From Rugalucina vietnamica (Eukaryota; Mollusca; Bivalvia; Lucinida; Lucinidae), in the NCBI GenBank assembly GCA_964017185.1, contig OZ024874.1, forward strand, positions 38,354,721 through 38,418,720: a stretch of 64,000 bases of DNA, written 5' to 3'. The position numbers and the translations under genes were made by a program. The stretch's first letter is position 1. Each line of letters begins with the position of its first letter. The notes beneath the pieces were generated by a model. It saw only the letters and a list, made by a program, of their open reading frames with translations. It was not told where the DNA came from and did not search any database. Positions 10,171 to 55,823 of this stretch are shown in pieces.

Positions 10171-10343
10171 GATCTACAAGCTGAGGTAGACGCACACCAA
10201 GGAACTTACGAGTCTCTGAACACTGCAGGGAACCAGCTCACTAACACCATGGTACAGGGAGCCGACATGGAGAGGCTGCACAGCAGACTACAGGAGATGA
10301 ACCAACGCTGGCTCACACTCATGACTAAATCCATGGAAATCAG
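10171..10343 (+). CDS. DMD: dystrophin exon 1 of window (human exon 56 equivalent)
   Basis: 173 nt, starting in phase 0 after the acceptor ctatttccag and ending in phase 2 at AATCAG|gtactg. It encodes DLQAEVDAH... through ...[11 protein letters not shown], a spectrin-like triple-helix segment with the NQRWL-type tryptophan. Human exon 56 is also 173 nt and begins with the matching DLQGEIEAH. The last 50 nt (10294-10343) are the founder unit of the tandem array that fills the following intron. Confidence 0.93.
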
Positions 10344-13300
10344 GTACTGAACCAAAGCTGGCTAATATTCATGACTAAAGACATAATCAGGTACTGAACC
10401 AACACTGCTTCACATGACAAAATCCATGGAAATAAGGTACTGAACCAACACTGGTTCACACTCATGACTAAATCCATAGAAATCAGGTTCTGAACCAACA
10501 CTGCTTCACATGACAAAATCCATGGAAATAAGGTACGGAACCAACACTGGTTCACACTCATGACTAAATCCATAGAAATCAGGTTCTGAACCAACACTGG
10601 TGCACACTCATGACTAAATCTATGGAACTTAAATACGTAATCAATGCTGGCTCACACGCATGACTAAATCCATGGAAATCAGGCACTGAACCAACACTGG
10701 CTCACAGACTAAATCCATGGAAATCAGGTACTGAACCAATGCTGGCTCACACTCGTGACTAAATCCATGGAAACCAGGTACTGAACCAATGTTGACTAAC
10801 ACTGTTGACTAAACCCATGGAAACCAACTAAGTAACCAATGCTTTCTCGCATTTATGAATAAATTCATGGAAACCAGGCACTAAATCAATGGTGGCTCTA
10901 AATTGCTCATGTTAAATCCATGGAAATCAGGCAGTGAACAGACCATACTGAAAACTCATGACAAAATTCATGGAAATCAGGTACTTTACCATCACTGGCT
11001 CATACTCATGACTAAATCTATGGAAATTGGGTACTTAACCAACACTAACTCACACTCATGACAAAATCCATTGAATTCAAGTACTTAATCAATGCTGGCT
11101 CACGCATGACTAAATCCATGGAAATCAGGTACTGAACCAATACTGGCTCACACTCTTTCTGATGACTAAATCCATGGAAATTAGGTACTGAACCAACCTG
11201 GCTCATACTTATGACTAAATCCATGGAAATTAGGTACTGAACCAACACTGGCTTACTCATGACGAAATCCATGGAACTAAATCCATGGAAATTAGGTACT
11301 GAACCAACCTGGCTCACACTTATGACTAAATCCATGGAAATTAGGTACTGAACCAACACTGGCTTACTCATGACGAAATCCATGGAACTTAAATACTTAA
11401 TCAGTGCTGGCTCACACTGGTGGCTAAATCTGTGGAAACCAGGTACTGAACCAGTGCTGGCTCACACTCGTTGCTAAACCTATGGAAACCAGGTAATGAA
11501 CCTCCATTGGCTCACACTTGTTACTAAACCCATGGAAATCAGGTACTGAACCACCATTGGCTCATACTCATTACTAAACCCATGGAAATCAGGTACTTAA
11601 CCAACACTGGTTTACTCATGACGAAATTCATGGAACTTAAATACTTAATCAGTGCTGACTCACACTGGTGGCTAATTCTATGGAAACCAGGTACTGAACC
11701 AGTACTGGCTCACACTCATTACTAAACCCATGGAGACCAGGTACTGAACCACCATTGGCTCACACTCGTTACTAAACCCATGGAAATCAGGTACTGAACC
11801 AGCACTGGCTCATACTCATGGCTAAATCCATGGAAACCATGTACTGAACCAATGATGACGCACACTCGTTACTAAACCCATGGAAATCAGGTACTGAACC
11901 AACACTGGCTCACACTCATGACTAAATCCATGGGAATCCAGTACTGAACCACCATTGGCTCGCACTCATTACAAAACCCATGGAAATCAGGTACTGAACC
12001 AACACTGGCTTACACTCATGGCTAAATCCATGGAAACCAGGTACTTAACCAATGCTGGCTCACACTCGTTACAAACCCCATGGAATTCAGGACTGGCTCA
12101 CACTCATGACTAAACCCATGGAAATTAGGCCTTGAACCAAGGCTAGTTCACACATGACTAAACCTATGGAAATCAGGTACTAGATGGCACTAATCTTGCA
12201 TTATTGGTTTTAAAATACACAGAACTAAATTTGGTCAGGTTTTTTCAGTAGTAATGGTGGAGGGAATTAATGACTGTCAACTTCTGACTAAGCTGTGGTT
12301 GACAACAGCTTAACTGATAGATTGAGAGTTTATCCTCTGGAGTGTAATTTTCTTCACCAGATTCCGAAGGATTGACTTAAAAGCCACTTTGTTATTTGAG
12401 GCAGGATTATAATAAAGGACAAAAAACAACAGTTGTCATACTGAAAGAAATAGATCTTAAACTCAGATATCAATGACTGTTGACCTTTGCACTCCAGAGA
12501 AAATTCATGACAAGGAAATCTGTTTCTTTAATTCATCATTGATGTAAAACTAAATTTTATTGCAAAGAAATAACAATGAAAACATGCAAGACTATGGGTA
12601 ATATGCAGTATGTTTTTCAGAGGGCGGTTAGAGACAAATGCTGAGCAATGGCTGAGACTTTTAACCACGATTCAGGACCTGTTGTCATGGATACTGAAGA
12701 AACAGTCTGATCTGAAACAGACTCAGAAGACATTGGGTGGGGACCTGGAGACAGTACAGAGACAGTCCACATACAATCAGGTAATAATACAAACTGGCTG
12801 CTGGTATAATTATACTGAAACAGAGCTGTGATGTAACCATACAGCTTACCCGCAATATTGGTTTCAATACAAAATGCAATCTTTACTCTCTGTGTCCAGA
12901 ATTTCAAGTCTGTAGCCATCTTCTGTGGCTGTACAGGCAAAAAAAGAAAACATACTCTTTTGCATTCTGTTTCCGTGAATTATTGTTAGTAATGGTCTGG
13001 CGTCAGTTGTCTGATGTCCATCTTCTGCCATTTTCAAAGATCCAGTCTTCTGAAACCTCAGAGCCAACCGTAGCCAAGTTTCATTTGAAGCCTCCTTGTG
13101 AAGGGGGAACAAAAGGTTGTTTAAATCACATAACCAATATGGCTGCCATGCCCGTATATGGTAAAAAATATTCTTCTTTAGAAACAGAAACAGAAAGCCC
13201 ATAGTTTTGAAACTTAAAATGAAATGTTTAGGAAATGGTCCTCTGATTAACTTGCACACATTTCCATTTAGTTCATCGGGAAAATACTTTTAGAATAATT

Positions 13301-16300
13301 GATTTTAAATATATTCTTGGTAACCTTGTAGAAACTGCGTGAACAGCTGGATGTGAAGCAGCCCCTGGTAGAGCAAACACTGGAGGCTGGTAGACTGTAC
13401 CTGCAGGAGGAAGGGGAAGATAACCGGCTCAGCTCTGATAGTGTTGACAGCAGGGACCAAGGTAATACACAGTTACTCCCCTCGGTATTCTTTGAACTTT
13501 GTTATAGTTTGAGTTATTTAAAAGTACCAGTCATCTATGACTGCTTTCCAAATCATCAGGTGATAGGCAATGATTGCAAAGCACCATTAAATGAGCCGCC
13601 TGGTTATAAAACCAACAATGTGGTTTCTGACCAGGTACGACACAAGTCGACCTGTACAGTCACAGAAGCAGGCTAGAAGCTTGAAATTTCGGATTTAAGT
13701 AGAAGAGGAATAGTACTATCTCAGTAGCGAAAACAAAGGCACTGGTAAACGCGAAGCTGATCTGCGTCTTTGTTTTTAGCTCGACTGCACGAAGTGCATA
13801 GAGCTATTGCAGTCACCCCGGTCGTCCACGTTCCCGTTCCCGTTCCCGTGCGCGTTCCCGTGCGCGTGCGCGTGCGCGTCACACTTGCGTTAAAGTTTTC
13901 TAGAAGTCCATATCTTGACAACCGCTCATCAGAAAGCATTCATACTTGGACCGTAGATACCCTGTAGGGTTAGCTTTCATTCCATGGCATCGGGCCCCTG
14001 GGTCCAGGCCAGGGGGTGGGGCTGGAGGTTAAAATCTAGAACACCTTCAAAAATGGCAATTCTTATGTTAAAGTTTTCTAGAAGTCCATATCTTGACAAC
14101 CACTCAGCAGAAAGCATTGATACTTGGGCCATTGACACCCTGTAGGGTCGGCTTTCATTCCATGGCATCAGATCCCTGGGTCCATGCCAGGGGGTGGGGC
14201 TAGAGGTTAAAATCTAGAACACCATTAATAATAATGGCTTTTCTGTGATATAGTATTCTAGAAGTCTATATCTTGAAAACTTTTTATCAGAGGGCTTTCA
14301 TACTCGGACCATAGGTACCCTGTAGGGTTGAGTTTCATTCCATGGCATCGGGCCCCTGGGTCCATGCCTGTGGGGTGGGGCTGGAGGTTAAAAACTAGAA
14401 CACTAAAAAATAGATGTACTGCTGTGTAACTTTTACAAGGAGGCATATCTTGACAACAACTTATCATAAAGCATTCATACTTCATACACTTTAGGTTCCA
14501 TGACATCGGACCTCTGGGTCGGAGTCAGGGGGCGGGGCTAGAGGTCAAAATCTAGAACTCCTCGATTTTTTTTCTTTTTATTTCTTAATAGAAACAACTT
14601 AGGAGGATGGTTGGTCATTCATCTTTTGACTTTGTGACACTAACTTGTGTGTCATGACGGTAAGGGTCGGTTGACCTATTTTCCATGGTTCAGTGATTTT
14701 GCCTTATATCTTGACACTCAATTAGTATATTTTCTTACTTCTTTCAGATTATGAGTTAGTACGACCAGGCCTTTGACCCCAATATACTTATAGGTCACTG
14801 TGACCTAATTTCACGGTTCAGTGATTTTGCCTTATATCTCGGTACTCAAATGGTTTATGAACAAACTTCTTTCAAAGTATGTTTGCGTATGACAAGACCT
14901 TTGACCCTGAAGTAGTCCTAGGTCACTGTGACCTAATTTCACGGTTCAGTGATTTTGCCTTATATCTTGACACTCGATTAGTATATTTTCATACTTTTTT
15001 CAGATTATGAGTGAGTATGACCAGACCTTTGACCCCAATATACTTACAGGTCACTGTGACCTAATTTCACGCTTCAGTGATTTTTGCCTTATATCTCGGT
15101 ACTCAAATGGTTTATGAACAAACTTCTTTCAAAGTATGAATGCATATGACAAGACCTTTGACCCTGAAGTAGTCCTAGGTCACTGTGACCTAATTTCACG
15201 GTTCAGTGATTTTGCCTTATATCTTGACACTCAATTAGTATATTTTCATACTTTTTTCAGATTATGAGTGAGTATGACCAGACCTTTGACCCCAATATAC
15301 TTATAGGTCACTGTGACCTAATTTCACGGTTCATTGACTTTGCCTTATATCTCGGCACTCAAGTGGTTTATGAACAAACTTCTTTCACACTATGTTTGCG
15401 TATGACAAGACCTTTGACCCTAAAGTAGTCCTAGGTCAATATGACCTAATTTCACGGTTCAGTGATTTTCCTTTATATCTCTGCACTCAATTGGTATATG
15501 AACATACTTCTTTCACGATATGTATGAGTATGACAAGACCTTTGACCATAAAGTAGTCCTGGGTCACTGTGACCTAATTTCATGGTTCAGTGATTTCGCC
15601 TTATATCTCAACACTCAGTTGGTATTTTTTCATACTTCTTTCTGATTATGAATGAGTATGACCACACCTTTAACCCAAACATACTTATAGGTCAATATGA
15701 CCTAATTTCATGGTTCAGTGATTTTGCTTTATATCTCAACACTGAATGGGTATATGATCATTTTTCTTTCACATTATGAGTAAGTATCACTTGACCTTTG
15801 ACCCTGCAATACTTATAGGTCAGTGTGACCTTTTTTCACGGTTCAGTGATTTTGCCTTGTGTCTTGGCACTCAGTTGGTATATGAACACACTTCTTTCAC
15901 AATATGAGTGAGGCCTTTAAATCTTAGGTAGTTATAGTTAACTTCCATGGTTGTGATTTTGCCTTATTGCATCAAGGCAAAAAGATGTGAGCATAATGCT
16001 TTGGGTTACTGGTCGGGTTTGGCCTTATGCTTGACAAAGGTCAGAAGCAGTCGAGCACGCTGTCCTGCGACAGCTCTTATTGCATATGCAGATTGTTGGT
16101 TTTCTCATGAGGCGGCTCAAATATTAAGCCTGATGCAGGGTTGGGATGGAGTTTGGGGCCTTTAGCTAGCAAGGTATAGCTGTATGAAATGTCCTACTGG
16201 TCCCATATTTACAAACCCTGAAATGCTGAGTATTTATAAAGAAAAGACAAAAAATAACATAGACAAAAAATGATAAAAAATAAGTACAAGTCTCTCTATT

Positions 16301-19300
16301 ATAATACTATTTTTTGGGTCTATTAAAACAGACCATCTTACAAGTGAAACTGTGTAATAATGAGGTGACTTGCAATATAATAAATGGCAAGAAAAAGATT
16401 TTGATGGTTAAGTTATCAACAATTTCTAGGTTTATCTCTGATATGAATATAAACTAGGCAGTAAGATGGATCTGCTGTCCTGTTTGAACCCATCTATTGT
16501 CTGGAAATCTGTAGACAATGGATATTTCAATTTGAAACTGTAATCTAATCTAAAGCCTGATGTGTCTGTAATATTTGACAATACTGTGTTTAGCTTATAG
16601 ACAAGCCGAGATAAATGACAAAACTCTCGAAGAAAACGGCAAGATATTTTTGAGAAAACTAATGTGTTTTCATTGATTGAAATTGAGCCGCGTCATGAGA
16701 AAACCAACAATCTGCATATGCGAAATCAAAGACGCGGATCAGCTTTGCTGTAACCGCAAAGCTGATCAGAGCCTTTGTTTTTGCTACACGTATAGTACAC
16801 TTCCTCTTCTTAAATCCAAAATTTCAAGCTTCTAGCCATCTTCTGTGCTTGTACAGCTCAGTTTGTGTCGTACCTGTTTAAAAACCACATTGTGGGTTTT
16901 CTCATGAGGCGGTTTAAATATTCTGAGGTGTAGAGACAGTGTGATGTCTTGAGTTCTGATCTTCCTGCGCAATGGTATGGCAGTATAGTGGTAAAGTTTA
17001 TTACTTTAGAACAATAGATCCTGGGTTTGATACCTACCTCAACTATGTAGTGTCCTTGAGCAAGACACTTTAAGCTCTCCAGATTACATTGTAATGCCCA
17101 AGATGTAGCAGTTCTGCCAGATACAGTAAAACTTGCGCTAACGACCACTTGAATTGGGCGACCACCTACGTTTAATGACCAGTTTCAATTCCTCCCAACG
17201 ATTTTCACTATATTTTATCATTGGATTAAGCGACCGCCTCGCTTTAGCGACCAACGACCATGTTTTTGACTAAAATTTTGCATTCTTGCGACCATATTTA
17301 GAGCCAAAATTTTGATCGTTCTCTTGAACGGTAACTTCATAGAGCGTTGTTCACACCTGTTTCAAGGTTATTAACCCTGGCGTAGGTTTTCATTATACTA
17401 TTGTTAAATTGTTTATTGTATTTATAACAAAGTCACTGATAGGTGGTAAAGTAATTGGTCTAATTACCGAAGCATAAATCCTTCTATTGTCTGTCTCCCT
17501 CGTCGCAACGGTTGATCAGCACAAGCTCAATACAGTAATTAAAAGTGATTAAGCGTTAAGAGCTTGTGTGATTATTTTGTTGATTCTGCAATGTTCATGA
17601 AATCAACGAAGTTCATGAAAACACAAGAATTGATCTCTGTTTATCCTTTTTCCCAGTAAATTCGGCGTTTCAGTCCAATATTGTAAGGGAAGCAACTCTT
17701 AGACGCTCCATTCCGGCAAATCGTAATACCCCGCCTCGTTTTGAATCGAAAGTAGAGTTGATAAATTAGACCAGAAATCGTTCGAAAGGTAGATTAAATT
17801 TGCTGCAGTTTCCGATTCTTTTTACGTTTTTTGTTCTTCCATCTCTGTTTTCTTGCGTTCAACATCAGTTCAGTCGTTCTGAAGGTAGTTGATAGAGCCA
17901 GATGCGTCTGTTTGACAAAGTCAGTGAGATTTGTCAGGTGTTTCCCCCCGGGATGCTCCCTTGCTCACCCCACCCATCTATTGTTTCGTGGATTCGTCTC
18001 GATATGAGTGAAAAAATTCGACAGGCATAAAAGCGATTAAAAAATATCCTTGCCCAAGCAAAACACTCCCTTTTGCTTGGAGAACAAAACAATAAAAACA
18101 ATTAAAGAACCATGGAAAAAAAACACTAAGAAATCACACTTCTTGAAAAAAAAAGGCACATATGTCTCCGAAAAGCATTTCCTAATTAAAAGACCACCTT
18201 GATTAAGAGACCATTTTCCATCCTTCCCTTGAGCGGTCTTTTAATACAAGTTCTACTGTATGTCTAAAAAGTTCAGGCCTTGGATGTATATATAGTCCAT
18301 ATATACCCCTCAATGCAGTGCTACCTGTGATCAAGTCAAATAATTCTTTGTTATCTTTTCTAGATGAGACGTCAGGCAGCGAGTCTTCCCCTGAGAAAGA
18401 GGCTCGTCAACTCATCAAGAAGATCAGGCGACACATCCGTCTTCTCAACAGAAAGTGGGCGGAACTGAATCAGGGATCTAATGAGTGGCAGGCCAGACTA
18501 GATGAAGTTTTAGAAGTATGTATTTAATGAGAATACATGTTTTAAAAGATGTTACTAAGATGTAAAGGAGCACATTCTTGTTGTTTTGGAAGTTGGAATG
18601 CCTACCTGTTACTTGACTTCTTGTTTTGTATTGTTAGAGTATTGGTAATACAGGGAAATTTTAAAAGATAGACAGTGGAAATGGTTTTCCTGAAGTCTTG
18701 ATTATTTTTTCCTTCGATGTATTCAGGATTTACAAATTATAGAGGCTTCATCTTAAATAGGAACACAAATCATATGTATGTAATGTAAAGCATTCAAGTA
18801 GAGCTTGTGGATACAGGATGTAATATGAAATGATAATCTTGCCCATATTTCCAGAAAATGACCTATTTCCAAGATGCTATGGAAGACTTGAATGAGGGGT
18901 TAATGACGGCAGAAAATGAGATGCACAGATGGCAGCCAGTGGGAGATATACTCATAGACAACTTACAGAAAGAAATTGATAAAACGAAGGTAAAGTACAT
19001 GGATAATTTTCTTTACTTTGGTATTGTACTGTAGAAATTAAGAATCACTCTGGTCAGAACATGAAATATTGCCTTCAGTTTTCACATACAAACCCAATAA
19101 ACAACAATAACTTTAACCTATGTGAATTAGTTGAGTGCCAAATAATGCAGAGCTCTGTGGATTAAATTCAAATGAAAATAATCCAGCGACATTTGTTTGG
19201 TCTAATTGTACTGGCCTGTTATTTCCAGGCATGATTCTGGCACTGTCACCTAGCTTAGTGCCTTCATTTGGTCGGAATTGATAGTTCATCTTAATTGGTT

Positions 19301-22300
19301 TGATTATCAAAACTATCACGCCCTTAAACATGTAACCTTCTTTATTGATATGCAGTTTGTTAAACTTATAAAGTTTCAATGAAATTTCACTGTGGACGTC
19401 CCTGACATAATATATATTTTGTGTTCCAGACATATCAGCTAGCTATAGGTCCACTTCAAGGACAGGTGGATAATGTTAACGACCATGTTAACGAACTAGA
19501 GGCAGCCAATATAGTTCTCTCACATGTAGTTTTACATAAACTAGATGACTACAAAACAAGGTACATGTATTGTACATGTCAATATGCCCTTCACTGGATT
19601 AAAACTTGGTTAGAAAATTTTCCAAAATAGATGATACACAAAAAAATAGAACTGATAAATTCTAATGCTTATTGAAGATGGAATAGCATGCAGAAGCTCA
19701 GTATAATTGATTGCATTATCTTTTTATAAAAAGGAAAAAAGTCCTTCGATATTGAAGAATTTAAAGCATCACTAAGTGTCAAATTTGTTCTACACACAAT
19801 TTTCTTTTTACATGTAATTGCTGTGCTATTACACTTGATCTAAATAAAAATCAGGATCCAGTCTCTTTATCTAAGTTTATAGATATAATTAATGGTTAAC
19901 TTGTCTCAGAAATTGATAAAACACCTAACTTTAAGACTGAATGATTCCATTTGTAGTCTATGACCTGAAAGATGTGAACCTTTCTGTCTATGTTTCATTG
20001 CAGACATAAAGCCCTCCAGTTAGCTGCTGAAGATAGATTAAAAAATCTACAAGATGCCTTAAGAGCTTTCGGTCCTAACTCACAACATTTCCTCTCAGGT
20101 AAGCTTTCGGTCCTAACTCAACATTAATTTTCCTCTCCGGTGAGACAAACAATAGTTTTAACCTTACTTTGTGTAGTCAGAGCTAGTTGTTGGTGTTAGA
20201 ACCCCCGCCCATCAGAGCCATGAGAAAAAGTAGGCTGCCTGTGCCTCCACACAAAGCTTATAGCCATCTGACCGACCACCTGATTACTGGTTAATCATAT
20301 AGGTGGTCTGATCCTGCCAAGGAAAAGTGGTTTAGTCAAGACTACTTGACTAAAGCCTTAGTTTTTTACTCGGTTGAACATATTTTATAGCACATTGTGG
20401 ATGTCATGACATTCCTGTGCTGCGTCCAATCCAATAAAATGGAGGCAACTTGCCTACATTATTGTAACTGATGACTGGGATGTAAAGCATCAAATAAAAC
20501 ATACAATTTGTTGTTGATGATCATATGATCATAGTAATGTGATGTCCAGATGTTTTTTAGCTCACCTGAGCCGTTAGGCTCACAAGGTGAGCTTATAGGA
20601 TGGCCATGATCCGGCGTCCACCCGTCGTCCGTCCGTCCGTCGTCCACCATTTTCAAAGATTTTCTTCTCTGAAACCGCTTGGCCAATCAAAGCCAAATTT
20701 TATATGAAGCAACTATAGGAAGGGGGAACCAATGTGTTTATAATTAATCCAGGTCACATGACCAAGATGGCCACCATGCCCATATATGGTAAAAACCCTT
20801 CAAAATTCTTCATCTCCGGAACCACTGGACCGATTTCAACAAAACTTGGCATGAAGCATCGGGGACTAGAGTGCTACAATGTGTTTATAAATTATGACCT
20901 TTGGATGACCTTGACCTATTTTACAGCAAGGTCAACATAGTTCGCCTATGCATTTGAATGGGGAAAATTGTTAAAATGTCATTTGAAAGGCAAATCTTGC
21001 AGGAAATGGGCAAATGGTCTAAAGGTAGGTAATTCTGAAAAAAAATTGGACCCTAGGGATTGGTCTGCCCCCACCCCGGGAATATACATGTACATTACAA
21101 AAATATTCAAAGATCTTCTTCTCTGAAACCACTTGGCCAATCAAAGCCCAATTTTATAGGGAGCATCTATGGGAAGGGGGAATCAATGTGTTTATAAACA
21201 AGTATAAGCTTTAACAAAAAACTTGGTCTACGCTTCGCATATATAAACTAGAATGTCAGAGAATCTGACCGTACTCCCATTTCATCGAGGTGCACTTGAC
21301 TGAACAGAAATAAAACGCTGCGCGGTGAAAGCATTCATACCTGACAATCGACCGTCACAATACTGTCGGTTCATTTCATTCTGTTGTGGCTGGGATAGAA
21401 TGTAATTGGCTACACGGCAGGTGGGGCGCGGTCTAAGCTTTCATACCTGGCCATATAGCGTCACAATACCGTTGGTTCATTTCATTCCGTTGTTGCTTAG
21501 ATAGAATGCAATCATGCGCCAGTTCCATGAATTTAACAATTTTTGGTACAAACTGCACCATTGGTACAAATGTTACCAACCATAGGGAGGTTTGCATGGG
21601 TGTTTGGGGGTGTTTACACGGTCCTTGGCGAAACGACCCGGAATCCTACTAACACGATGGTCAAGCCACTAGACTCAAACATGCAGTTGCAGTTGTAGAG
21701 AGGTGTATGAGTTGTCTTGTAAGTATAATCCAGGTCACATGACCAAGATGGCCGCCATGCCCATATATGGTAAAAACCCTTTAAAATTCTTCTTCTCCTG
21801 AACCAATGGACCGATTTCAACAAAACTTGGCATGAAGCATCGGGGACTGAAGTACTACAATGTGTTCATTAATTATGACCTTTGGATGACCTTGACCTAT
21901 TTTACAGCAAGATCAACATAGGTCGCCAAGGCATTTGAATGGGGAAAACTTTTAATATGTCATTTGTGAAAGTCTTGCAGGAAATGTGCAGTAGGACTGA
22001 ATATTAATGATTCTGAAAAAAATTGAACCCAATGGGGCTCATTTGCCCCAGCCCCGGGGCATTATACATGTATATTACCATAATATTCAAACATCTCCTC
22101 TGAAACCGCTTGGCCAATCAAAGCCAAATTTCATGTGAACCATCTATAGAATGGGGGAATCAATGTATATATAAATAATCAAGGTCACATGACCAAGATG
22201 GCCGCCATGCCCATATATGGTATAAACCCTTCAAAAATCTTCTTCTCCGGAACCAGTGGACCGATTTTGAAAAAACTTGGCGTGAAGCATCGATGACTCA

Positions 22301-25300
22301 AGTACCACAATGTATGTAAAAATGATGACCCTGTGGTGACCTTGACCTATTTTAAGGCAAGGTCATCATGGGTTGCCTATGTATTTGAATGTGTAAACTG
22401 TTAAAATGTCATTTGAAGGGAAAAACTTGTATGGACAGTATATTGACTATTTTTTTTAAAAAAAATGGCCCAAGGGCTTCATCTGCCCCTATACTGGGAC
22501 TATTTTCTATAACATTCGTATATACAGCAGATCTCAGGTGAGCGTTTACAGGACCATTGGTCTTGTGGTTTACTACATCCAGTAGGCAAATGTCAAGGTA
22601 TTGGAAGAAAAATAAGCCAAGAAAATACAACAGCTATTAATCAATGAATGTATTTATAGGTTGGCAATCAAAGTTACCTCCCTTGCACTTAAGAATTTAA
22701 GATAGCAAACATATTAAGAAAACTGCATTAAAGCTTACATTGAATGGTTTTGAATGAAGCAAATTCTCCCAGTTTAAGGTCATGATAATTGTCTTGTTGG
22801 CTCTTTTTAGATTTTGCATGTCAAATTTTGATGGACATATCCAAGTCGCATAATATTAACCTGTATTCTGGAACTCTCCATATTGATATGTTGTCATGTG
22901 ACACTTCACAAACAGTTGAACTGATCAACAGAGCATCTGCATAGTCTGATTAAAGCATTCAGTGTATTGAAGTTGACGGGGTGGTTGATGAGACTTCCAG
23001 CAGGACTCACTGCTTCATTTTGTCCTATAATATTAAGTCAATTAGTGTTCCTTTGCTGGTCATTAAGGTCGTGTTAATTGCCTTGTGAAGTCATTAACTG
23101 TCTGGCCAGCCACTTAGTCATTATGTTTTTGTCTATTTAGTGTCATAATAATGGCTTCCTGCTGATACTTTGATATACTCCAGTTTATCATTAGTAGAGA
23201 CACCTCGTTAGAAAAAATGTTTTCTGTGTTTATGTCTAGGTCGAACACTGGTCTTTACAGCCACGAAAGATTTTGAAATCTCAGATTTTGAAAGATGCAA
23301 GGGTTTTTTACTCCCTATAATGTGAAAACAAAGGCACAAATAAACTAAATACTTCTCATTTATCGTGACCATATGTTTGTTTTTGGTTATTCAGAATACA
23401 GGTTATCTCATGATGTGGCTCATTGTATCTTTATTGTCCATCATGGCTTTTTGTGATAACAATTTGCTGAGAAAATAAGTTTACTGGAAAGTTATATAAC
23501 AGATTTTAGATTTTTCTAAAACAAAACATAAGTAGTGAATCGAGAGATGAAGGAGCTAAATATGCAAATGATCATGGGTAAATCTTGTTTTGGAAGCAAT
23601 AAACATAATGAAAGCTTAATTTGACTACAGTGTAGATTTAAGAGATGGCTTATCTAGGAAATGCCATAGACTAAGATCAGATGGCTCAGTGATAGTACAT
23701 GTATTTCAAGCCCAGTACAGGTTATGTGGAACAAATCAAGTACTGCTAGCGGATGTGGAAGGTGTTTTTTTCCTCTAGGGTACTTGCATTTTCAGAGGTG
23801 GATCCAGGATTTTTGGAAAGGGGGTTAAAATGAAGAAAAGGGGGGTTCGTTTGCCTAATTTCACACAAAATCTCCTGAAATTACCCATGCAAATGAAATA
23901 ATTTGAGACCGGAGGGGGGTTCGAACAAACCCCTGGAACCCCCTCTAAATCCACCACTGATTTTACCCCACCTACTGCTGGCTTGTCTTGATACATGTAT
24001 GTGTGTGAAATAAACCTGAAATGGATGTAGTACTGAATTTTTAGAACAAATCATATAAAACAGATTGCCAATTAAAGATTTTATTATATTAGTGAGTACA
24101 GTAGTAAAGACATTCTAAACTGTTCTGGATTCTTGAATATATATCCAGTAGCTGAGGAAATTATTGCAACTGCTGTTATTCTGTGTTTAATTTCTCTGTA
24201 ACTTGCAAATACCTACTTTGAAAGTTTGTCCATGACCAGTAAACTTGACTATGAAACAAGAAGCATACAGCATTGAAAACTAATAAAGGCCCCCATGCAT
24301 GTTTAGTTGTCATTAATGTCATCCTATTGACAGTGGGTATTATTGGCCCTGTTATCTTTTCATAATCTTAGATTTTGTCAAATTAATGGACTTATTTATA
24401 TGGTGCACACTTCATTAATAATATAGTATGATTGACTATAAATAATAATTATTAGATATTAGGTCCAATATTGGTATAGTGGTTGACCAAATATGTAGTC
24501 ATTTACATGGCATTTTTTTTATGGTCTCTTTGTTTTGCTTTTATGCATTTTTTTTTTTGAAATTTAGTGTCCTTTTCCATGGTTAATTCAGTAGTACAGG
24601 TACGAACAATCTAATGCTAGTAGCTCATTGCTTGGTCCCCTTTTGTGTATCACTTTAATTGGATTTTGATGTCCAAAAGTTCGTAGGCAGTGTCCAGTCA
24701 TGAGTGAAATATTGTTTGTTGGAGGATTAAAATCTTTAAATACACAGAAATACTAATAAAATCATGGTAATCATTATCATTATCAATATTGCTCCAGCAC
24801 AAGTTTAACAGTGAGCCGTGACGCGAGAAAACCGGTGTTCAGGGCATCCGACCAGGTTCGACACAAACCGGCCCAGACATGCACAGAAAAAAGCTAGAAT
24901 CTTGAAATTTTAGGTATAAGTAGAGCAGGAATTGTTCTGTCTGTATAGCGAAAACAAAGGCGCTGATCAGCTGTACAGTTCTGCGTCTTTGTTTTCACAT
25001 GGGTAATAATCCCATTTTCTCACGACATGGCTCACTTCACCCTGTAGGACAGGAATGTCTGAAGGTTTAAACCTCTGGCAAACTTTTGGCCCTATACTTT
25101 AGACAAATAATATGAATAAGACAGATTCCCTAGATTTCTTAAGTATTACAATATTATATTGTGCATGCAAATTTGTAGCATATTGGAATTGTTCTAATAT
25201 GGCTCAAGGGAGCGAAATAAAGCATCTTTACTGAACTAGAAAGTTGGATTGACTATCCTTGAGATAGCTACAGTCTAGATAGGAATGGAGGATTTCAAAC

Positions 25301-28300
25301 TAAAAGGTAACCACCTGTGTTATGTATACCCTCATACAGCCCACTTTGTATAGAAAAACAGGGGAGTACAGGGGTATACATTATTTTTCTTATGTTTACT
25401 CCAAAACATAGTGGGAAGGTGGTTTTAACATTTATCCACAATCACTAAGCAAAACTAAAACAAATGCATGGTTATGCTATTATGATGGGTGTTTGTTGTA
25501 TTTTCAGCCTCAGTAGAACCTCCCTGGGAGAGGTCGGTGGCAGGGAATAAAGTGCCTTATTATGTCAAGTAAGTTATACCATTTTACTCCTCTGCACTTC
25601 TTGTACTTGTAAGAAGAAAATCACATTTAGATAAAAACAAATCACAGAAGCCTTTATGGTGTAGTGGTTAAGCCATTGGCTGGTAAACCAGGGGCTATGG
25701 GGTTCAGGCATGAGATTCTTCAGACTAATGGAGGATTTCAGATTTTTTCATGTCAAAGTACATTTTCAAAAGTTATTGGATTTCATCTGAAAGTTATAAA
25801 AACAAACTTTTTGGAAAGGGTGTATAGGGGTTTCAGACTTTTTAAGCTGATTTCAGTCATTTTCAGATTTTTTCATGAAGAGCTCAATCTCATGCCTGGG
25901 GTTTGATCCCTGGTTCATCCAGTCTTAAGGATCAGACTTTAACCCAAGGTCCTGTTGTCTCCATATGACCTTAGCTGTAAGTGGGGCATAACTCATGAAA
26001 TCAACTCTCCCCCCCCCCCCCCCCCCCCCCCCAGTGTTAATTTAAATATTGCCCCAGAATTTGCCAGGCATCGGTCAAGTCAGACCTGTATTAGCTGTTT
26101 GCTTGAAGAAAATCAAGTTTGTTATTTCCTCTGTAAGCACAGAACTGATTGATCAAAACTTATGGTGAGTGCCATACATGTGATATCTCCCGATCTCGTC
26201 GGGTTTTCCCGATTTTGGGCTTCCTAACCCGATTGTCCCCCGCCGAGCCCAGTAGGGCCCAAATCTCCCGATTTCAGTATTTGCCTATCCCAATTTTTCG
26301 GCAATGTTCCATTTTTAGCTCGCCTGTACGAAAGTACAGGAAGAGCTATTGCAGTCACGTCGGCATTAGCGTCGGCGTTAGCGTCAGCGTCGACGTTGCT
26401 CAAAATGTTAAAGATTTTGGTTAAAGTTTTTATGAGTCTATATCTCTTGAAGTTGTGGATGGATCAAGTTGATACTTTGCATGTTGGTAGATATTGGTCT
26501 GAAGTTTTATGCTGTACCATCATGACCCACCTGGGTGACCTTGAGGTCAAGGTCACGGACTTAGAAATTTTTTGTTAAAGTTTTTGGTTAAAGTTTTTAT
26601 AAGTCTATATCTCTTGAAGTTATTGATGGATCAGGTTGATACTTTGCATGTTGGTAGATATTGGTCTGAAGTTTTATTCTGTACCATCATGACCCACCTG
26701 GGTGACCTTGAGGTCAAGGTTATGGACTTAGAAATTTTGTGTTCGGGTTTTTGGTTAAAGTTTTTATAAGTCTATATCTCTTGGATATGTAGATGGATCA
26801 TGTTGATACTTTGCATGTTGGTAGATATTGGTCTGAAGTTTTATGCTGTACCATCATGACCCACCTGGGTGACCTTGAGTTCAAGGTCACAGACTTTTAA
26901 TTTTTATGTTAAAGCTTTTGCTTAAAGTGTTTTGAACTGTATATTGCTGGAACAGATGGATAGATCTAGTTGATACTTTGCTGTTAGATATTATTCTTTT
27001 ATTATGCTGTAGCATCTTGACTCACCTGTGGTCAAGGTCACAGACTTAGGTTTTAGGTTATAAGTCTATGTCAGATATGTAGATGGATCAAGTTGAACTA
27101 AGCATGTTGGTAGATATTGGTCTGAAGTTTTATGCTGTACCATCACGACCCACCTGAGTGACATTGAGGTCAATGTCTTTGGTCATAGATGTAATAGATT
27201 TAGTGACAAAGCACAAGTCAGGCGAGCTACGCTGTCCTGCGACAGCTCTTATTAATATTGCGGTAATATACGGTACGTGTTATTGATCATTGACCCGATA
27301 AATACCTTGGAGTAATTTAGGAGACAATGCAGAATAGATGACATGTCACTTTATTGCATAATTGGCGAAGTGAGAAGGGATTAATGATGCGACAAATTGT
27401 CAGTCTTACAGGTACAGTGTATAATGTCAGCCGCTAATTTGATCAGAGTTCATCTTTAGAAAGATTAATGCGTCTTTAATTTGGAGGGCTTGGATTAAAC
27501 ATTGCCGATAATCGTAATAGGACAATTAATTCTGATTGTCCTTTAAAGATTATCGGGCATTTTGAACATGTGGGACCGATTTATCTTTCATTTTTGTCGG
27601 TCCAAGTAAAAACATTTTTTCCGATTTTTCCCTGAAAAAAGTTTGATCGGTCCTTATATTCACAAGTTTCAGACGCAATATACCACTACTACGCACGTGT
27701 CAACATGATAATTGCCCCTGTCAATTGCCTAGTTATCAAAACAATTTTCGCGGAAAAGTGTGAAAGTTACTGAAACGTGAGGACTGGTAACCTTGCGGTT
27801 TTAATGTGTTGGGTAAACATCGCAGTAATTCATGCAACACTTGCTGATTGGCCCATTCTAACTAACGCGTGGGCGGAGCTTCTCAATAATCTACCGAAGC
27901 CGTTTTGACATTGTGCAATAATGTCCGTCTGTCGTTTCAACACTGTGAAACAATTTTCTGATTTTGAGCTCGGAGCCAAAATCAAAATTTAATATTAAAC
28001 TCCAGACAGATAGTGACCAGCGATAATTGGGTGGCGGCGCGACATCAAATGATTAACATATAAGTTTAAAACAAACGCCATATAGTTCCGAAAGATCGGG
28101 TATTTCATACACATGAAAACGCCGCTTGCGAAGGTAGCGTAAGGCAAAAAGTCAGGTAAATTTTCCGACCTACAAACTATTGGAACGAAACGGTTATAAT
28201 AAAGGGGAGCAACTGCGTTGTCGAACCAGAAAAATGCGGGGTACCAGCTAATAAAGTAAACATTGGAATTACAAAAACTTGAAACACAAATTTCTGTGGA

Positions 28301-31300
28301 AAAAGGAAAGAAATTTGTACGTTTTTCTGCTTTTTTCTTTGTCTGTTTTATTTCAATACATTGAAATATTTAAATTTTCTCGAATTGACGTTGATACAAT
28401 GGACATAAAGTATGAAATAATAAATGTCATTAGTTTTCGCGACTTCTTAGATACGCTTTGTACATGCATGTTGTATGTCCATGATGACGTCAACACTGAG
28501 CTAGACCGATTTGAGAATTAAAATTTCCTCAGCTGTGATTATATTTAATTATGGAATTATTAGTTTGCTATAAAATTACCACCCATTAGCAAAATCATGA
28601 AAATATAAGGGATCATAAGGCAAATGTAATGCATCTTTTGCTCAAAAATGGCAAAAAATCTTCGCTTTTTAACCGCGCTAAAATCTCCCTATTTGAGACC
28701 CAATCTCCCTATTTCAAAACACAAATCTCCCTATTTGAGACCCAATCTCCCTATTTCAAAACACAAATCTCCCTATTTGGGCCAAAGAAGATATCACATG
28801 TATGTTGAGTGCACAATTTATAATTTTTAATTTGTCTTGCAATTTCTCTATGTTATGCATTTGCCTTACAAAGATTGATATTCAGTGTATAAATTATAAG
28901 CAGTAAGACATGAATATAAGGACTTATGTTCACTGAAAGATAATAAAATGTTATGCAATGTAAGACTATATTTGTTGTTGTTGTTTTCTTGCAGTCATAA
29001 CAGCAGAACCACTCACTGGGACCACCCAGAGATGACTCAGCTTATGGATGCCCTCAGTAAGTTGGAATGTGTTTCTATGTATCATATACATGTATTAGTC
29101 TTGTGTACAAGAGCCAGTCTAGAATATGATCAGTTTGACTTATGTTTATAAATGCTCCGAGAACAAAATTTCATCTACAATTATGGCAGTACATGTATAT
29201 TAATGATATAAAGCCCAAAAGAGGCAACTTTATTTCTTTTTTCTAGAGCAAAGAAAACAGTAAGAATGTGTACCATCCATTTATATTTAAACTTCCATAT
29301 ACCGTATTCGTTCTAATTAGCGCACATGCTCCAATAAGCGCACACCCCGGTCATTTCCGAAAACACGTGCATAAGCACACACTGCGCCAATAGTATGTTG
29401 GTATTTTACACCAATAATACACAATGATAACGCATTAAAACTTAACCGTAAATAATCATATATAACTTGGAAACAATTTGAACACTTAAATGACATCACC
29501 ATTGGTAGATTGGACATGGTTATTAGCATTTGGATGTGTTGTTTTCGTTCGTAATGTGCGCTTATTAGACCGATATTTTCTTACCTCAACTTTTAGTCAT
29601 TTTGAAAATGTTCGCTAATTAGAACGAATACGGTAATTATTATTCAATTTAGGGTTAATCACTGAGTGTAAACCACAAAGACACAATTAATTTTGATATA
29701 ACCTTGTACACTGCATTGTAAACACATGGCAATGTCTTCTCTTCCAGATGATCTGAACAATGCTCGGTTTGCTGCCTACAGAACTGCTATGAAGTTACGT
29801 CTTGTTCAAAAGAAAATGTGCTGTACGTCCACTTAAAATATATTGTCCCTTGTTACGAAGAACTCTAATTTGAAACATGTCCTTGAGCATTCACATTAAT
29901 GAGCTGCGATGCCAGAAAACAGGTCTTTGGGATTTCCGACCAGGTCAGACATATACCGACCTGTGCAGTCACAGAAGAAAGCTAGACTCTTGAAATGTTG
30001 AGTATCAGTAGAGGAGGAATTGTACTATTCGTTAAGCAAAAACAAAGGCACTGATCAGCTGTGCAGTCACTGCACAGCTGATCTGTGCCTTAGTTTTCGC
30101 ATAGGCAAAAATACGGTGTTCTCATGATGATGCTCAATTAAGGCCATTGTGCTGGTTAATATCCAAGAAGCTTTGGCTGCAGCTAGACAGAAAGTTCTGA
30201 AAAATTCTGGACTGGGATCTGATGCCAAAATACATTAAAGAACAAATTTTGATAATGAAATATGAATTTGCATTAGTTTACTCTCCCATCATCACAAAAA
30301 ATATTTTTAAAAATAGATATACCACATTTTATGTGCCAGTTGAAGTTTGTTATCTTTTCCTTTCTTCCAGTGGATCTAATAGAAATGGATGTGGCAACAG
30401 ATTCTTTTGATAAACAAGGACTTCGGGGACATAATGACAATCTTATGGACGTGATAGAAATAATAAACTGTGTTGCCGCGATGTACGAGTCGTCGGCAAA
30501 AAATCATCAGAACCTTATTAATGTTCCACTGTGTGTAGATTTAGTGCTCAATTGGATGTTAAGTGTGTATGATGTGTAAGTATTCCCAGACATGAAGTTA
30601 TTTTTAAATTTATGATTGATGCTTTTCAAAAATCATAAATTCGAATTTTTGTATCATATGTCCTAAAATGTGCTGAATACATTATTTTTCACGAATAAAA
30701 CAGTACAAAATCATTAAATGTATATAGCTTTAAAATATTACATATAAGAATTGGATTGCTTTCCTTGCATTATGGATCATACAAGTCTGTTATGATAAAA
30801 AAGCTGCTAAATCAAAGGTGTTATGAAAGGGATCATATTGTGAACTGTATCTTTTTAGCCATAGCTTTCAAACAAGCTCTCTATTTGTTTCTATTTCTTT
30901 TGAACAAGTTTACTATAATATCCTGAAATTGCCAGTTTCTTATTTCAGAACGAGAAGTGGTAAAATTCGAGTTTTATCCTTCAAAGTAGGTGTGATATTG
31001 ATGTGTAATGGCCATACAGATGAAAAATATAAATGTGAGTACCCTTTGCATGTCACCACAGTTTTCTGGTTGAGTTAGAAAGGATAAGTATGATCAAAGT
31101 GTTTCATAATCTTTTTGTGTGAATGGTTTTTGAGACTGTGAAATTTGGGCTTTTTTTGTTCAGCCACCTCACAAATACACTGAAACACATAAATAAATTG
31201 TTAATCACAAAGTTGTTGAATATTTTCTCCAAAGATGTAATTTTTGAGCTCATTTGCAAATGCAAGAGCTGATGCCTCATATATTGATCTTTTTAATTTG

Positions 31301-34300
31301 TGCAATTTTAGTGGAAGTATTTGAGCTGCCTCATAAAACCAACAATCTGCATATGCAAAAACAAAGGCGCAGATCAGCTTTACAGTAACTGCAAAGCTGA
31401 TCAGCACCTTTATTTTTGCTACATGGATAGTATGATTCCTCTTCTTTCTGAAGCCAAAATTTCTGGCCTCTAGCCTGCTTCTTTGACTGTACAGCTTGAT
31501 TTGTGTTGGACCTTTTCGGAAACCACATTGTTGGTTTTCTAATGAGATGGCTTATTTTTACTATTTCAGTTTTATTCCGGTTGATTGCTGACACTGATGG
31601 TCTGACGGACCAGAGGAAATTAGGTTTACTTCTCCACGACTGTATGCAGATACCCCGACAGTTAGGAGAAGTGGCTGCTTTCGGTGGCAGCAATGTAGAA
31701 CCTAGTGTTCGCAGCTGTTTTGAGAAGGTAACTTTCTTTCGTTCAAAACTTGTCTTTCTGAATTTTTTTAAATAACTGCTAATATTTTATGTTTATGCCC
31801 CCAACTTTGAAAAAGTTGGAAGGGCATATTGCTTTCGGCTTGTCTGTGTGTGTGTGTGCGTGTGTACGTCTGTTAACTTTTGAATGGTGAATGTTAGGGA
31901 TTTGAAATTTCATGTGTGTATTCCTCATGAAAAAATAGTTGACCCGTATTTTTTTTCTTGTCTGAGTTATGCCCCTTTTCTGAGTTATTTCCCTTTGAAA
32001 ACAAAATTTGAAAATCTTGTGTGCAAGATATCTCGAAAAGTATTTAAGCTACAGCCTTCATATTTGGTATACTGGTTGGGGCTGATGAGTAGATGACCTG
32101 ATCAACTTTTGAGAACTTTCCGTCAAATTTTGACAAAAATACGGAATTTTGAAATTTTGATTGATTTTTCCACTTTTCGGTGAAATTTGAAACTTTTGAA
32201 CGGTGAATGCTAGGGTTTTGAAATTTCATATACAGATTCCTCATGAAAAAATAGTTGACCCGTATTTTTTTTTCTTGTCTGAGTTATGCCCCTTTTCAGA
32301 GTTATTTCCCTTTGAAAACAAAATTTGAAAATCTTGTGTGCAAGATATCTCGAAAAGTATTTAAGCTAGAGCCTTCATATTTGGTATACTGGTTGGGGCT
32401 GATGAGTAGATGACCTGATCAACTTTTGAGAACTTTCCGTCAAATTTTGACAAAAATACGGAATTTTGAAATTTTGATTGATTTTTCCCACTTTTCGGTG
32501 AAATTTGAAACTTTTGAACGGTGAATGTTAGGGTTTTGAAATTTCATATACAAATTCCACATGAAAAAATAGTTGACCCGTATTTTTTTTCATGTTCATT
32601 TTATGCGCCTTTTTGGAGTTATGCCCCTTTTAAAACAAAATTTGAAAATCTTGTGTGCAAGATATCTGAAAAAGTATTTAAGCTAGAGCCTTCATATTTG
32701 GTATACTGGTTGGGGCTGAGAAGAAGATCACCTGATTAATTTTTTAGGACTTTCCGTCAAATTTTGACAAAATAACTCCATTTGAAATTTTTACTCCATT
32801 TCTAACTTGCATGCAAAAAGCTTACATTCTGTTTCTGGATCGAGGTAAAAAAAACAGGCAACCGAACAGCTTCTTTAGGAAATTAAATTTCACATCATTC
32901 AAATGAAATAAATGAATCATACAGGCTGCCGGTTTAGGGACAAGCATACAGTTGGGGGCATTGTGTTTTACAAACACACATTTCTAGTTTTAAAAGAATT
33001 TTGATAGCAACAGTGATTTCTGTTGGATTACCAGTACATATAACACATGAATAAACTGCTTTTGCATAATTTCTATTTCTTTATCAAATATATTTCAAAA
33101 TATATTTCAAGATTTGGCAAGCATGACAGTGCATGGAGGTTTTGAGTTTTCCAGATATAGAAGTACATGTATTGCCACCAAGCAGAAGTCCCTGTAGGAA
33201 GATTTCAAAAATGAGCCCCGTCATGACAATATCAATGTTTTGCATGTGTGAAAACAAAGGCGCCTTTGTTTTCACTACACAGATAGTACAGTGCCTTTAC
33301 TTTCTTAATCTAAAATTTCCAGCCTATAGCCATCTTCTGTGCTTGTACAGCTCGGTTTGTGTCTGACCTGTTCAGAAGCCACATTGTTGGTTATCTCACA
33401 TTGCGGCTTAAATATTGAAAATCGTGATTTTCTGTTACAGGTGCCTGGTAAAACTCAGATTGAGGTCAGTGATTTCCTCGAGTGGTTACGTATGGAGCCA
33501 CAGTCCCTCGTCTGGGTACCAGTCATGCATCGTATGGCGGCCGCGGAGTCAGCAAAACATCAAGCAAAGTGCAATATCTGTAAAGCTTTTCCTATTGTAG
33601 GTTTTAGGTAAGTACAGTATTGTGTACTTCTTTTTCTTTTTTTAAAAAATATTTAAATGCTTAATTTTTGAAAATTCAGTACTGCCAATTCATGAAATAT
33701 GTAAGAAATTTTTATTCAAGCTTATCACCTAAAAAATGTCTGCATGCTCACAAAAAGAATAGACTGCTTCAAGTGGTGCAGCATTACTGCTGGTAGCTAA
33801 ACACTGGAAAATCGTTATTATATGTCACTCTTTACAAAAAGAAAAAGTCTGTTATTTACTTTGTTTCAGATATCGTTGTTTACGGTGCTTCAATTTTGAC
33901 ATGTGCCAGAATTGCTTTTTCTCAGGAAGGAAGGCTAAACATCATAAACTCACTCATCCTATACAAGAATACTGTTCTACCGTAAGTTATTCCCCTTGTT
34001 AATGTTTTCGTATTGTACCTCTTCTTAGTTAATATTCCTTCAGTCTGAGAAATAAAAGAGAGAAAATGTAAGGGAAATTTGTAGCATACGAAAATCAAGT
34101 TTGATCTCTTTTCGATTCTAGGATCTTCTATGGTATAGAGAAAAATTGATCATGTAAACCTTGTAAACCAGGGATTGTGGGTTTGATTCCACGCTTATCC
34201 ATTCTCAGTGGCCTAGTTGTAGAGCTTTAACTCACCAGAGTACTGGTTAATACCCACATATCAGTAATGGAAACTGTTGTAACATTAAACACAGAACACA

Positions 34301-37300
34301 AACTCGTCGAGAGTATCTAATAAGAAATCTATCTCCATGTATTCGAAATTGTTTTCTATTCACTTTCAGACATCCTCAGGGGAAGACATTCGAGATTTTA
34401 CCAGAGTTTTCAAAAACAAATTCAAATCCAAACGCAGTTTCAGGAAACATCCTAGGCTTGGTTATCTCCCTGTACAAACGGTCTTAGAAGGAGATGCCTT
34501 GGAAAGGTAGGTAACTCTATTGTGAATGTGGTGGCGTTGTCTCCCTGTACAAACGGTCTTAGAAGGAGATGCCCTGGAAAGGTAGGTAACTCTATTGTGA
34601 ATGTGGTGGTGTTGTCTCCCTGTACAAACGGTCTTAGAAGGAGATGCCCTGGAAAGGTAGGTAACTCTGTTGTGAATGTGGTGGTGTTGTCTCCCTGTAC
34701 AAACGGTCTTAGAAGGAGATGCCCTGGAAAGGTAGGTAACTCTGTTGTGAATGTGGTGGTGTTGTCTCCCTGTACAAACGGTCTTAGAAGGAGATGCCCT
34801 GGAAAGGTAGGTAACTCTATTGTGAATGTGATGGTGTTGTCTCCCTGTACAAACGGTCTTAGAAGGAGATGCCCTGGAAAGGTAGGTAACTCTATTGTGA
34901 ATGTGGTGGTGTTGTCTCCCTGTACAAACGGTCTTAGAAGGAGATGCCCTGGAAAGGTAGGTAACTCTGTTGTGAATGTGGTGGTTATCTCCCTGTACAA
35001 ATGCCCTAGAAAGGTAGGTAACTCTGTTGTGAATGTGGTGGTGTTGTCTCCCTGTACAAACGGTCTTAGAAGGAGATGCCCTGGAAAGGTAGGTAACTCT
35101 ATTGTGAATGTGGAGGTGTTGTCTCCCTGTACAAACGGTCTTAGAAGGAGATGCCCTGGAAAGGTAGGTAACTCTATTGTGAATGTGGTGGTGGTGTCTC
35201 CCTGTACAAACGGTCTTAGAAGGAGATGCCTTGGAAAGGTAGGTAACTCTATTGTGAATGTGGTGGTGTTGTCTCCCTGTACAAACAGTCTTAGAAGGAG
35301 ATGCCCTGGAAAGGTAGGTAACTCTATTGTGAATGTGGTGGTGTTGTCTCCCTGTACAAACGGTCTTAGAAGGAGATGCCCTGGAAAGGTAGGTAACTCT
35401 ATTGTGAATGTGGTGGTGTTGTCTCCCTGTACAAACGGTCTTAGAAGGAGATGCCCTGGAAAGGTAGGTAACTCTGTTGTGAATGTGGTGGTGTTATCTC
35501 CCTGTACAAACGGTCTTAGAAGGAGATGCCCTGGAAAGGTAGGTAACTCTGTTGTGAATGTGGTGGTGTTATCTCCCTGTACAAACGGTCTTAGAAGGAG
35601 ATGCCCTGGAAAGGTAAGTAACTCTGTTGTGAATGTGGTGGTGTTATCTCCCTGTACAAACGGTCTTAGAAGGAGATGCCCTGGAAAGGTAGGTAACTCT
35701 GTTGTGAATGTGGTGGTGTTATCTCCCTGTACAAACGGTCTTAGAAGGAGATGCCCTGGAAAGGTAGGTAACTCTGTTGTGAGTGGGGTGGTGTTATCTC
35801 CCTGTACAAACAGTCTTAGAAGGAGATGCCCTCGAAAGGTAGGTAACTCTGTTGTGAGTGTGGTGGTGTTATCTCCCTGTACAAACAGTCTTAGAAGGAG
35901 ATGCCCTGGAAAGGTAGGTAACTCTGTTGTGAATGTGGTGGTGTTATCTCCCTGTACAAACAGTTGTAGAAGGAGATGCCCTGGAAAGGTAGGTAACTCT
36001 GTTGTGAGTGGGGTGGTGTTATCTCCCTGTATAAACAGTTCCTGGAAAGGTAGGTAACTCTGTTGTGAGTGTGGTGGTGTTATCTCCCTGTACAAACGGT
36101 CTTAGAAGGAGATGCCCCGGAAAGGTAGGTAACTCTGTTGTGAGTGGGGTGGTGTTATCTCCCTGTATAAACAGTTCCTGGAAAGGTAGGTAACTCTGTT
36201 GTGAGTGTGGTGGTGTTGTCTCCCTGTACAAACAGTTGTAGAAGGAAATGCCCTGGAAAGGTAGGTAACTCTGTTGTGAATGTGGTGGTGTTGTCTCCCT
36301 GTACAAACGGTCTTAGAAGGAGATGCCCCGGAAAGGTAGGTAACTCTGTTGTGAATGTGGTGGTGTTGTCTCCCTGTACAAATGGTCTTAGAAGGAGATG
36401 CCCTGGAAAGGTAGGTAACTCTATTGTGAATGTGGTGGTGTTGTCTCCCTGTACAAACGGTCTTAGAAGGAGATGCCCTGGAAAGGTAGGTAACTCTATT
36501 GTGAATGTGGTGGTGTTGTCTCCCTGTACAAACGGTCTTAGAAGGAGATGCCCTGGAAAGGTAGGTGTTATTATGTATGGGTGTTCTGCTTTGTTAGTGA
36601 AGCTGTGTTACTGTTGTTGTTGAAGACTGTTGTTGTTCCTGACTTGAGCCGCCACATGAGAAAACCGGTCGTTGGGGTTTCCATCCAGGTCCTACATGAA
36701 CCAGCCTGTACAGTGTCAGAAAAGGCTAGAAGCTTGAAATTTTGGATTTAACAAGAGGAGACATTGTACTATCTGTGTAGGGAAAACAAAGGCATGATCA
36801 GCTTCACAATCACTGCGAAGCTGATCTGCGCCTTTGTTTTTGCATAGGCAAAAATCTGGTTTTCTTATGACACGGCTCACTTTTAAAAGGCAAACTGTCC
36901 ATATTGGGGAGAGGGGAGGGGGGCATGGAGTGGGAGGGGGCATGGAGTGGGAGGGGGGCATGGAGTGGGAGGGGGCATGGAGTGGGAGGGGGCATGGAGT
37001 GGGAAGGGGCATGGAGTGGGAGGGGGCATGGAGTGGGAGGGGGCATGGAGTGGGAGGGGGCATGGAGTGGGAGGGGGTATGGAGTGGGAGGGGGCATGTT
37101 TTATAACATGAACTTGTGAACTCCTGAATGCAGAGTTGGGTAGTTGAGAAACAGAATTGTACAATGTCATTGAATTTAAAGGAGAAAATGATAAATTACA
37201 TTGTCACTGCCCTAAGTTTGTACTATATGATAGCATTTCTTGTGAATGCAAATAAGCTAACTTCAGCATCAGACAAGATGTATTGTGTCACGACAGTAGG

Positions 37301-55688: not shown

Positions 55689-55823
55689 TTATGTGATGTC
55701 AAACTCGACCAAACCTACTTTGGTAAGTATATAGTCATCATTTTGTAGATTTTCTATCACATTGAAATGATCTGTATCAGGAACCTGGATCACAGAACAT
55801 CGTATACCATGGATTGACAATGC
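55689..55823 (-). CDS. AFMID: AFMID last exon with catalytic His and stop
   Basis: 135 nt including TAA at 55691-55689; acceptor aatatattttcag; encodes ALSIHGIRCSVIQVPDTDHF and NVIENLQNDDYILTKVGLVE, ending FDIT. Confidence 0.93.
   Translation of the reverse strand, partial: ALSIHGIRCSVIQVPDTDHFNVIENLQNDDYILTKVGLVEFDIT

Follow-up and report, generated by a model that had tools for sequence, protein, structure and literature searches.

Tandem arrays across exon–intron borders of a clam dystrophin gene: probable mirage minisatellites tolerated through exon definition

Why would the ends of exons, together with their splice sites, be repeated dozens of times within the introns of a single gene? 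This question is raised by the dystrophin gene of the bivalve Rugalucina vietnamica, the 3' half of which lies on the plus strand of the 64,000-nucleotide stretch analyzed here (the window; C6:38354721-38418720 of a 1.09-Gb genome in 47 contigs). Joining its 23 window exons (10171-49203) via the first donor of each array yielded one open frame of 968 codons interrupted by 22 introns, the intron number given in an earlier note on this DNA. The predicted protein contains spectrin, EF-hand, ZZ and WW domains, and of ten relatives compared the clam Mercenaria mercenaria has the most similar one, at 80% identity across 973 columns. As we detail below, the arrays are likely to be minisatellites of the kind called mirages, which would be tolerated through exon definition and then expanded without serving a required function. 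The window features that bear on the question are as follows.

10171..10343, plus strand: dystrophin exon E2; its last 46 nucleotides (nt) and GTAC form the first unit of array 1
10298..12181, plus strand: array 1, a border minisatellite of the donor type; ~50-nt units, 39 in number with the exon copy included, a few being partial
12621..12780, plus strand: dystrophin exon E3, in phase with the first donor of array 1
20004..20098, plus strand: dystrophin exon E8, from the exon map
20102..20144, plus strand: single degenerate copy of the E8 tail and donor, from alignment to the exon tail
34370..34506, plus strand: dystrophin exon E17; its last 46 nt open array 2
34461..36566, plus strand: array 2, a border minisatellite of the donor type; 75-nt units, 29 in number with the exon copy included
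39845..39913, plus strand: dystrophin exon E18, in phase with the first donor of array 2

The three cases of exon-end duplication described in the earlier note are thus real, although they differ in state. Units of array 1 match their unit sequence at 72% and carry the donor GT in 29 of 39 copies. In array 2, GT is present in 29/29 units, the last of which is partial and three of which are shortened, and the copies carry blocks of shared variants. The E8 copy is identical to the exon tail plus donor in 36 of 43 alignment columns, a score not reached by any of 2000 base shuffles; it failed a stricter border test and stands outside the 7/127 borders reported below and outside every array count. 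Arrays 1 and 2 probably derive from the exon copy, because the protein that this copy encodes matches that of relatives while most other copies differ from it. The E2 tail (LMTKSMEI) and its joint to RGRLETN align with relatives free of gaps, and so does the E17/E18 joint, if the first donors are used. Searched against the whole genome (E <= 0.001; best candidates alone scored and very common words skipped), the units of both arrays matched only their own arrays, and a transposon origin of the window units was rejected on this ground.

Upstream sequence of 200 kb was added to the window; in the resulting 264-kb stretch, which begins at C6:38154721, exons were located by means of full-length dystrophins of molluscs. 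The map comprises 67 exons with 127 resolved borders (63 acceptors and 64 donors); the first residues of the clam protein and a few internal stretches have no exon in it, and some exon ends are unresolved. Seven of the 127 borders, namely 5/64 donors and 2/63 acceptors, lie inside tandem arrays with units of 50-131 nt and 7 to 176 units per array. The systematic border test by itself gave 6/126, as it could not test the donor at C6:38225327, the position of which was set by hand. The five arrays upstream of the window are named after their border positions in the 264-kb stretch.

Donor C6:38219044: donor array 64324, tandem copies covering the border
Donor C6:38225327: donor array 70607, judged from its array
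Acceptor C6:38237848: acceptor array 83128, tandem copies covering the border
Donor C6:38238745: donor array 84025, tandem copies covering the border
Acceptor C6:38303727: acceptor array 149007 (C6:38293820-38303767), 176 units over 9,948 bp

Each 56-57-nt unit of array 149007 consists of a polypyrimidine tract, CAG and ~33 nt of the start of a spectrin-repeat exon, and the AG is kept in 175/175 extra copies. Array 83128 is split in two parts by an inserted repeat; its outer part (81021-81471) was counted as a separate, non-unique array off the border, since the main part of 83128 ranks as a similar copy at another place. Cross-BLAST among the units of the seven arrays returned matches of 10-13 nt only, which bears out the view of the earlier note that the units are unrelated and that amplification was repeated and independent. 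None of the seven units has a similar copy away from its own array within the 264-kb stretch. The copies also form higher-order repeats, as is typical of minisatellites. Array 2 (at 34513-34535) and array 64324 contain ~23 nt of intron-side filler between units, which is missing after the last unit; no match of more than 14 nt to either filler was found elsewhere in the 264 kb.

The mechanism that we propose would begin with a short tandem duplication across a splice site, in some cases at least between microhomologies. Inspection by eye revealed CACTGATG in intron and exon at both ends of the 56-nt acceptor unit of array 149007, GAG for array 70607 and AGT for array 84025; such unit-end sequences fit a putative microhomology-mediated tandem duplication followed by expansion. 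The duplication would be close to neutral because the introns are long enough for exon definition: splicing would use the first donor or the last acceptor, which of all copies lies closest to the other end of the exon, and the extra copies would leave as intron. Intron definition would instead use the opposite copies and purge such duplications. With arrays removed, the 63 resolved introns measure 378-3277 nt where they carry a border array (six measured); of those that do not, one has 234 nt and all others have 261 nt or more. An in-frame stop follows the first donor by 4-15 nt in all five donor arrays and precedes the last acceptor of array 83128 by 48 nt; use of other copies there would therefore give stop-containing exons. 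For exons between large introns, the sites nearest to each other across the exon are described as those chosen (Carranza et al. 2022, PMC9225289), and the deduced choice of the exon-most site would match this exon-definition prediction. Unequal exchange or slippage would then enlarge and homogenize the array, and copies free of selection would decay, as is seen in one array, array 1.

Canestro and colleagues reportedly described a mirage minisatellite in the amphioxus Adh3 gene in 2002. Tandem duplications of exon–intron borders under this name, at both border types, are presented for the amphioxus globin genes BflGb6 and BflGb9 in passages of PMC3087553, where Adh3 data and globin reverse transcription PCR (RT-PCR) are taken to suggest undisturbed splicing, haplotypes differ in length, and the genomic origin is called unclear; TnC and PGBD5 appear as further amphioxus cases in passages of PMC3902484. 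Judged by these descriptions, the dystrophin arrays are alike in that the unit spans a 5' or 3' exon–intron border, measures tens to ~160 bp and recurs in many copies with AG or GT. They show all the mirage features tested: a border-spanning unit, at all seven borders; either border type, with five donors and two acceptors in dystrophin and both borders of one myosin exon (see below); and a unit within ~10 to ~160 bp that is confined to its own locus, as established genome-wide for arrays 1 and 2. On the evidence of their sequences, they are a rarely described but known kind of element, here on an unusually large scale. Copy number ranges from 7 to 176 units, whereas the two haplotypes of BflGb6 have 3 and 6 units, and RT-PCR and length-difference evidence exists for the amphioxus arrays, the clam arrays being known from genome sequence. 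The host also differs, being a bivalve rather than a cephalochordate, and seven arrays share one gene. A literature search of open-licence papers found no mollusc report of such arrays.

Two other systems resemble the arrays in part. Turri and colleagues are said to have described, in 1995, a minisatellite with multiple splice donors in IFI6 (6-16). There, too, a minisatellite covers a splice donor and several donors are on offer, and according to passages of PMC4526556 two downstream units provide the donors of alternative transcripts. In dystrophin, by contrast, any downstream donor is predicted to add a stop codon, which speaks against such use in coding mRNA. Intron gain by tandem duplication of AGGT-containing segments (parts of PMC4974935; discussed in PMC3087553) likewise involves tandem duplications bearing splice signals; the dystrophin copies, however, sit in existing introns, and this origin was rejected for the two window arrays, as the E2/E3 and E17/E18 joints lack extra residues relative to other dystrophins.

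Border copies are not confined to dystrophin. A myosin-head family search returned 91 places, 36 of which were examined in 17 stretches (67.9 kb) chosen without regard to repeats, four to cover compact genes and thirteen to cover isolated exons; one of the 36 matches is cut by a stretch end. Thirteen tandem clusters (period 30-300) were found, five of them on an exon edge within a tolerance of 25 nt, match edges not being exact splice borders. These five, corresponding to 5/72 exon-match edges, occur in 4 of the 17 stretches with 2-3 copies each, and none has five or more units.

C1: myosin acceptor array, 3 copies
C13: myosin exon with separate partial copies of both borders (L045)
C7: myosin single acceptor copy
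C3: myosin single acceptor copy, degenerate

An effect restricted to dystrophin was rejected in view of these copies, and a restriction to one gene is not supported. The notion of tolerance towards border duplication in the earlier note holds, but a limit to 5' splice sites does not: two dystrophin arrays and four of the five myosin cases are of the acceptor type. Among the places listed by a spectrin-family search (71 matches, places only), no exon match was seen to recur at short distance, but copies of small size would escape such a list.

Some of the myosin copies might have another history. Myosin genes are known for alternative exons, and decay of such exons could account for a few copies, mainly the two-copy myosin cases, although we regard this as quite doubtful. 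A degenerate copy of the myosin P-loop exon lies ~480 nt upstream of the intact one (L032 121-210, C16:37765621-37765710), beyond the 300-nt limit of the edge count; it is likely to be a decayed alternative exon, and the copies on C7 and C3 could be so as well. The L033 and L045 copies, however, end inside the exon and repeat the border only, L045 copies its two borders separately, and the explanation is inapplicable to the dystrophin arrays.

A repeat-rich genome with arrays everywhere might by chance have some that start on a border. We modelled chance by letting a unit of length u cover a border with a probability of ~ borders x u / length. Counting all 53 dystrophin arrays with units of at least 20 nt, 7 are on borders where 4.65 are expected (P 0.17), and in the myosin stretches the 5/13 clusters on edges compare with 2.24 expected, a marginal excess (P 0.053). 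These counts speak for chance, but arrays present at several places in the locus were probably carried by transposons, and a border is not where such arrays would originate. Once they are removed, 24 arrays that have no similar copy elsewhere in the locus remain, 7 of them on borders with 1.30 expected (P 1.3e-4); 10 of the 24 have at least five units, and for these the ratio rises to 7 against 0.58 (P 1.6e-7), these dystrophin subsets having been defined after the arrays had been seen. Any dystrophin array of five or more units gives 7/14 (P 2.4e-5), and the upstream part, unseen by the author of the earlier note, gives 5/7 arrays on borders (P 5.8e-6). Setting the effective length to 100 kb yields P 0.016 for the locally unique arrays and 4.2e-5 for those with five or more units. 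The genome-wide rate by which the earlier note had proposed to judge border-spanning repeats was thus only sampled, at 7/127 dystrophin borders and 5/72 myosin match edges, and the excess over chance varies with the repeats counted. In this dystrophin gene, high-copy arrays that are locally unique are likely to be biased towards borders, and chance alone, while possible, is a rather unlikely explanation. The same enrichment would be expected if exon edges, through transcription, splicing complexes or a step in base composition (G+C is 0.461 in exons and 0.382 in the whole gene), promoted breaks or copying. In addition, in each of the five donor arrays the final copy breaks off at position +5 or +6 of the donor, where the 5' splice signal has its outer edge (window 12181 and 36566; 72839, 85341 and 64890 in the 264-kb stretch), even in array 2 and array 64324, whose units carry ~23 more intron-side nt. 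However, this pattern was recognized post hoc in five arrays of one gene, and selection for an intact first donor sets a lower bound near +5. On the intron side, acceptor units span 13 nt, 23-24 nt or, in L033, 55 nt, with no fixed edge, and the myosin enrichment is marginal. Border-directed amplification is unlikely in our assessment, and it would be a bold conjecture, which we hold to be improbable, that this genome amplifies DNA preferentially at exon edges, that copying stops where the splice signal ends on its outer side, and that border arrays hence form a genome-wide minisatellite class that originates at splice sites instead of comprising random minisatellites in chance contact with exons.

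Several observations weigh against mere tolerance of the arrays. Tolerance by itself does not account for the finding that, of the locally unique arrays with at least five units, 7/10 are on borders. Microhomology amounts to just 1 nt at array 1 and is unclear at array 2 and array 64324. Upstream of the last acceptor of array 149007, an in-frame stop is first met at 98 nt, and the last unit spans 57 nt; the next-to-last acceptor would keep the frame and add 19 residues. Moreover, six of the seven arrays keep every scored GT or AG (254/254 extra copies, including 10/10 in array 84025; only the main part of array 83128 was scored for AG). When the conservation of the donor or acceptor core was compared with the rest of the unit by mid-ranks, the exon copy being left out, Fisher's combination over the seven mid-ranks gave p 0.028, a weak hint that copies are being kept. 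Together with the 176 intact acceptors within one intron and the stop that every downstream donor would add, these last results would be expected of functional splice-site arrays acting as decoys, as U1 or U2AF reservoirs, or as poison sites that set the dystrophin dose via stop-containing mRNA. Such a function is nonetheless very unlikely. Divergence is greatest in array 1, where 8 of 36 scored extra copies have lost GT and 28 retain it; the donor core of this array varies more than the unit does (mid-rank 0.81). Mid-ranks of the other six range from 0.02 to 0.87. Column tests reached P <= 0.05 in 1/7 arrays only (64324, P 0.02, five scored copies), and both site types and several genes are hit without a common unit. 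Young age may lie behind most of the dinucleotide retention. For the storage of, or competition for, U1 suggested in the earlier note we obtained no clear evidence, since the most diverged donor array loses GTs and acceptor arrays would not bind U1; a U1 reservoir was rejected as a candidate, the comparison of core and unit conservation having given it no clear support. Copy numbers rest on a single assembly, yet an assembly artefact is extremely improbable given the patterned differences between copies (the divergence of array 1, the variant blocks of array 2, the mix of 56- and 57-nt units in array 149007) and the repeat inserted into array 83128. Tolerance of mirage minisatellites through exon definition, followed by expansion, is the reading that we prefer.

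Earlier descriptions of border minisatellites concerned single genes of amphioxus; the present seven in a single gene of a bivalve, together with the myosin cases, point to a class whose members could be counted genome-wide. The arrays represent a natural experiment in splice-site duplication: if exon definition holds, only the exon-most among dozens of near-identical sites (176 acceptors in array 149007, 29 donors in array 2) would be used. They could also feed intron change, and gene prediction can be misled by them.

Other repeats and genes of the locus were noted in passing. Intronic array families with units of ~455-465 and 160-180 bp recur at window 4677-6380 and 41391-44684 and at several upstream places, and are probably transposon-borne. 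Possible exons of a neighboring gene lie on the minus strand at window 55690-60940; one piece, GSSAGGHLAAMMLAQDW, has weak matches below cut-offs to alpha/beta hydrolase families, and we presume that the neighbor is perhaps a kynurenine-formamidase-like gene. Finally, an element of ~200-250 bp resembling a miniature inverted-repeat transposable element, with palindromic ends (GAGCCGC...GAGAAAACC ... CAAAGGCGC.GATCAGCT), was recognized by eye only, with copies in the window near 9660, 16680, 29905, 41125, 49360, 51620 and 56300.

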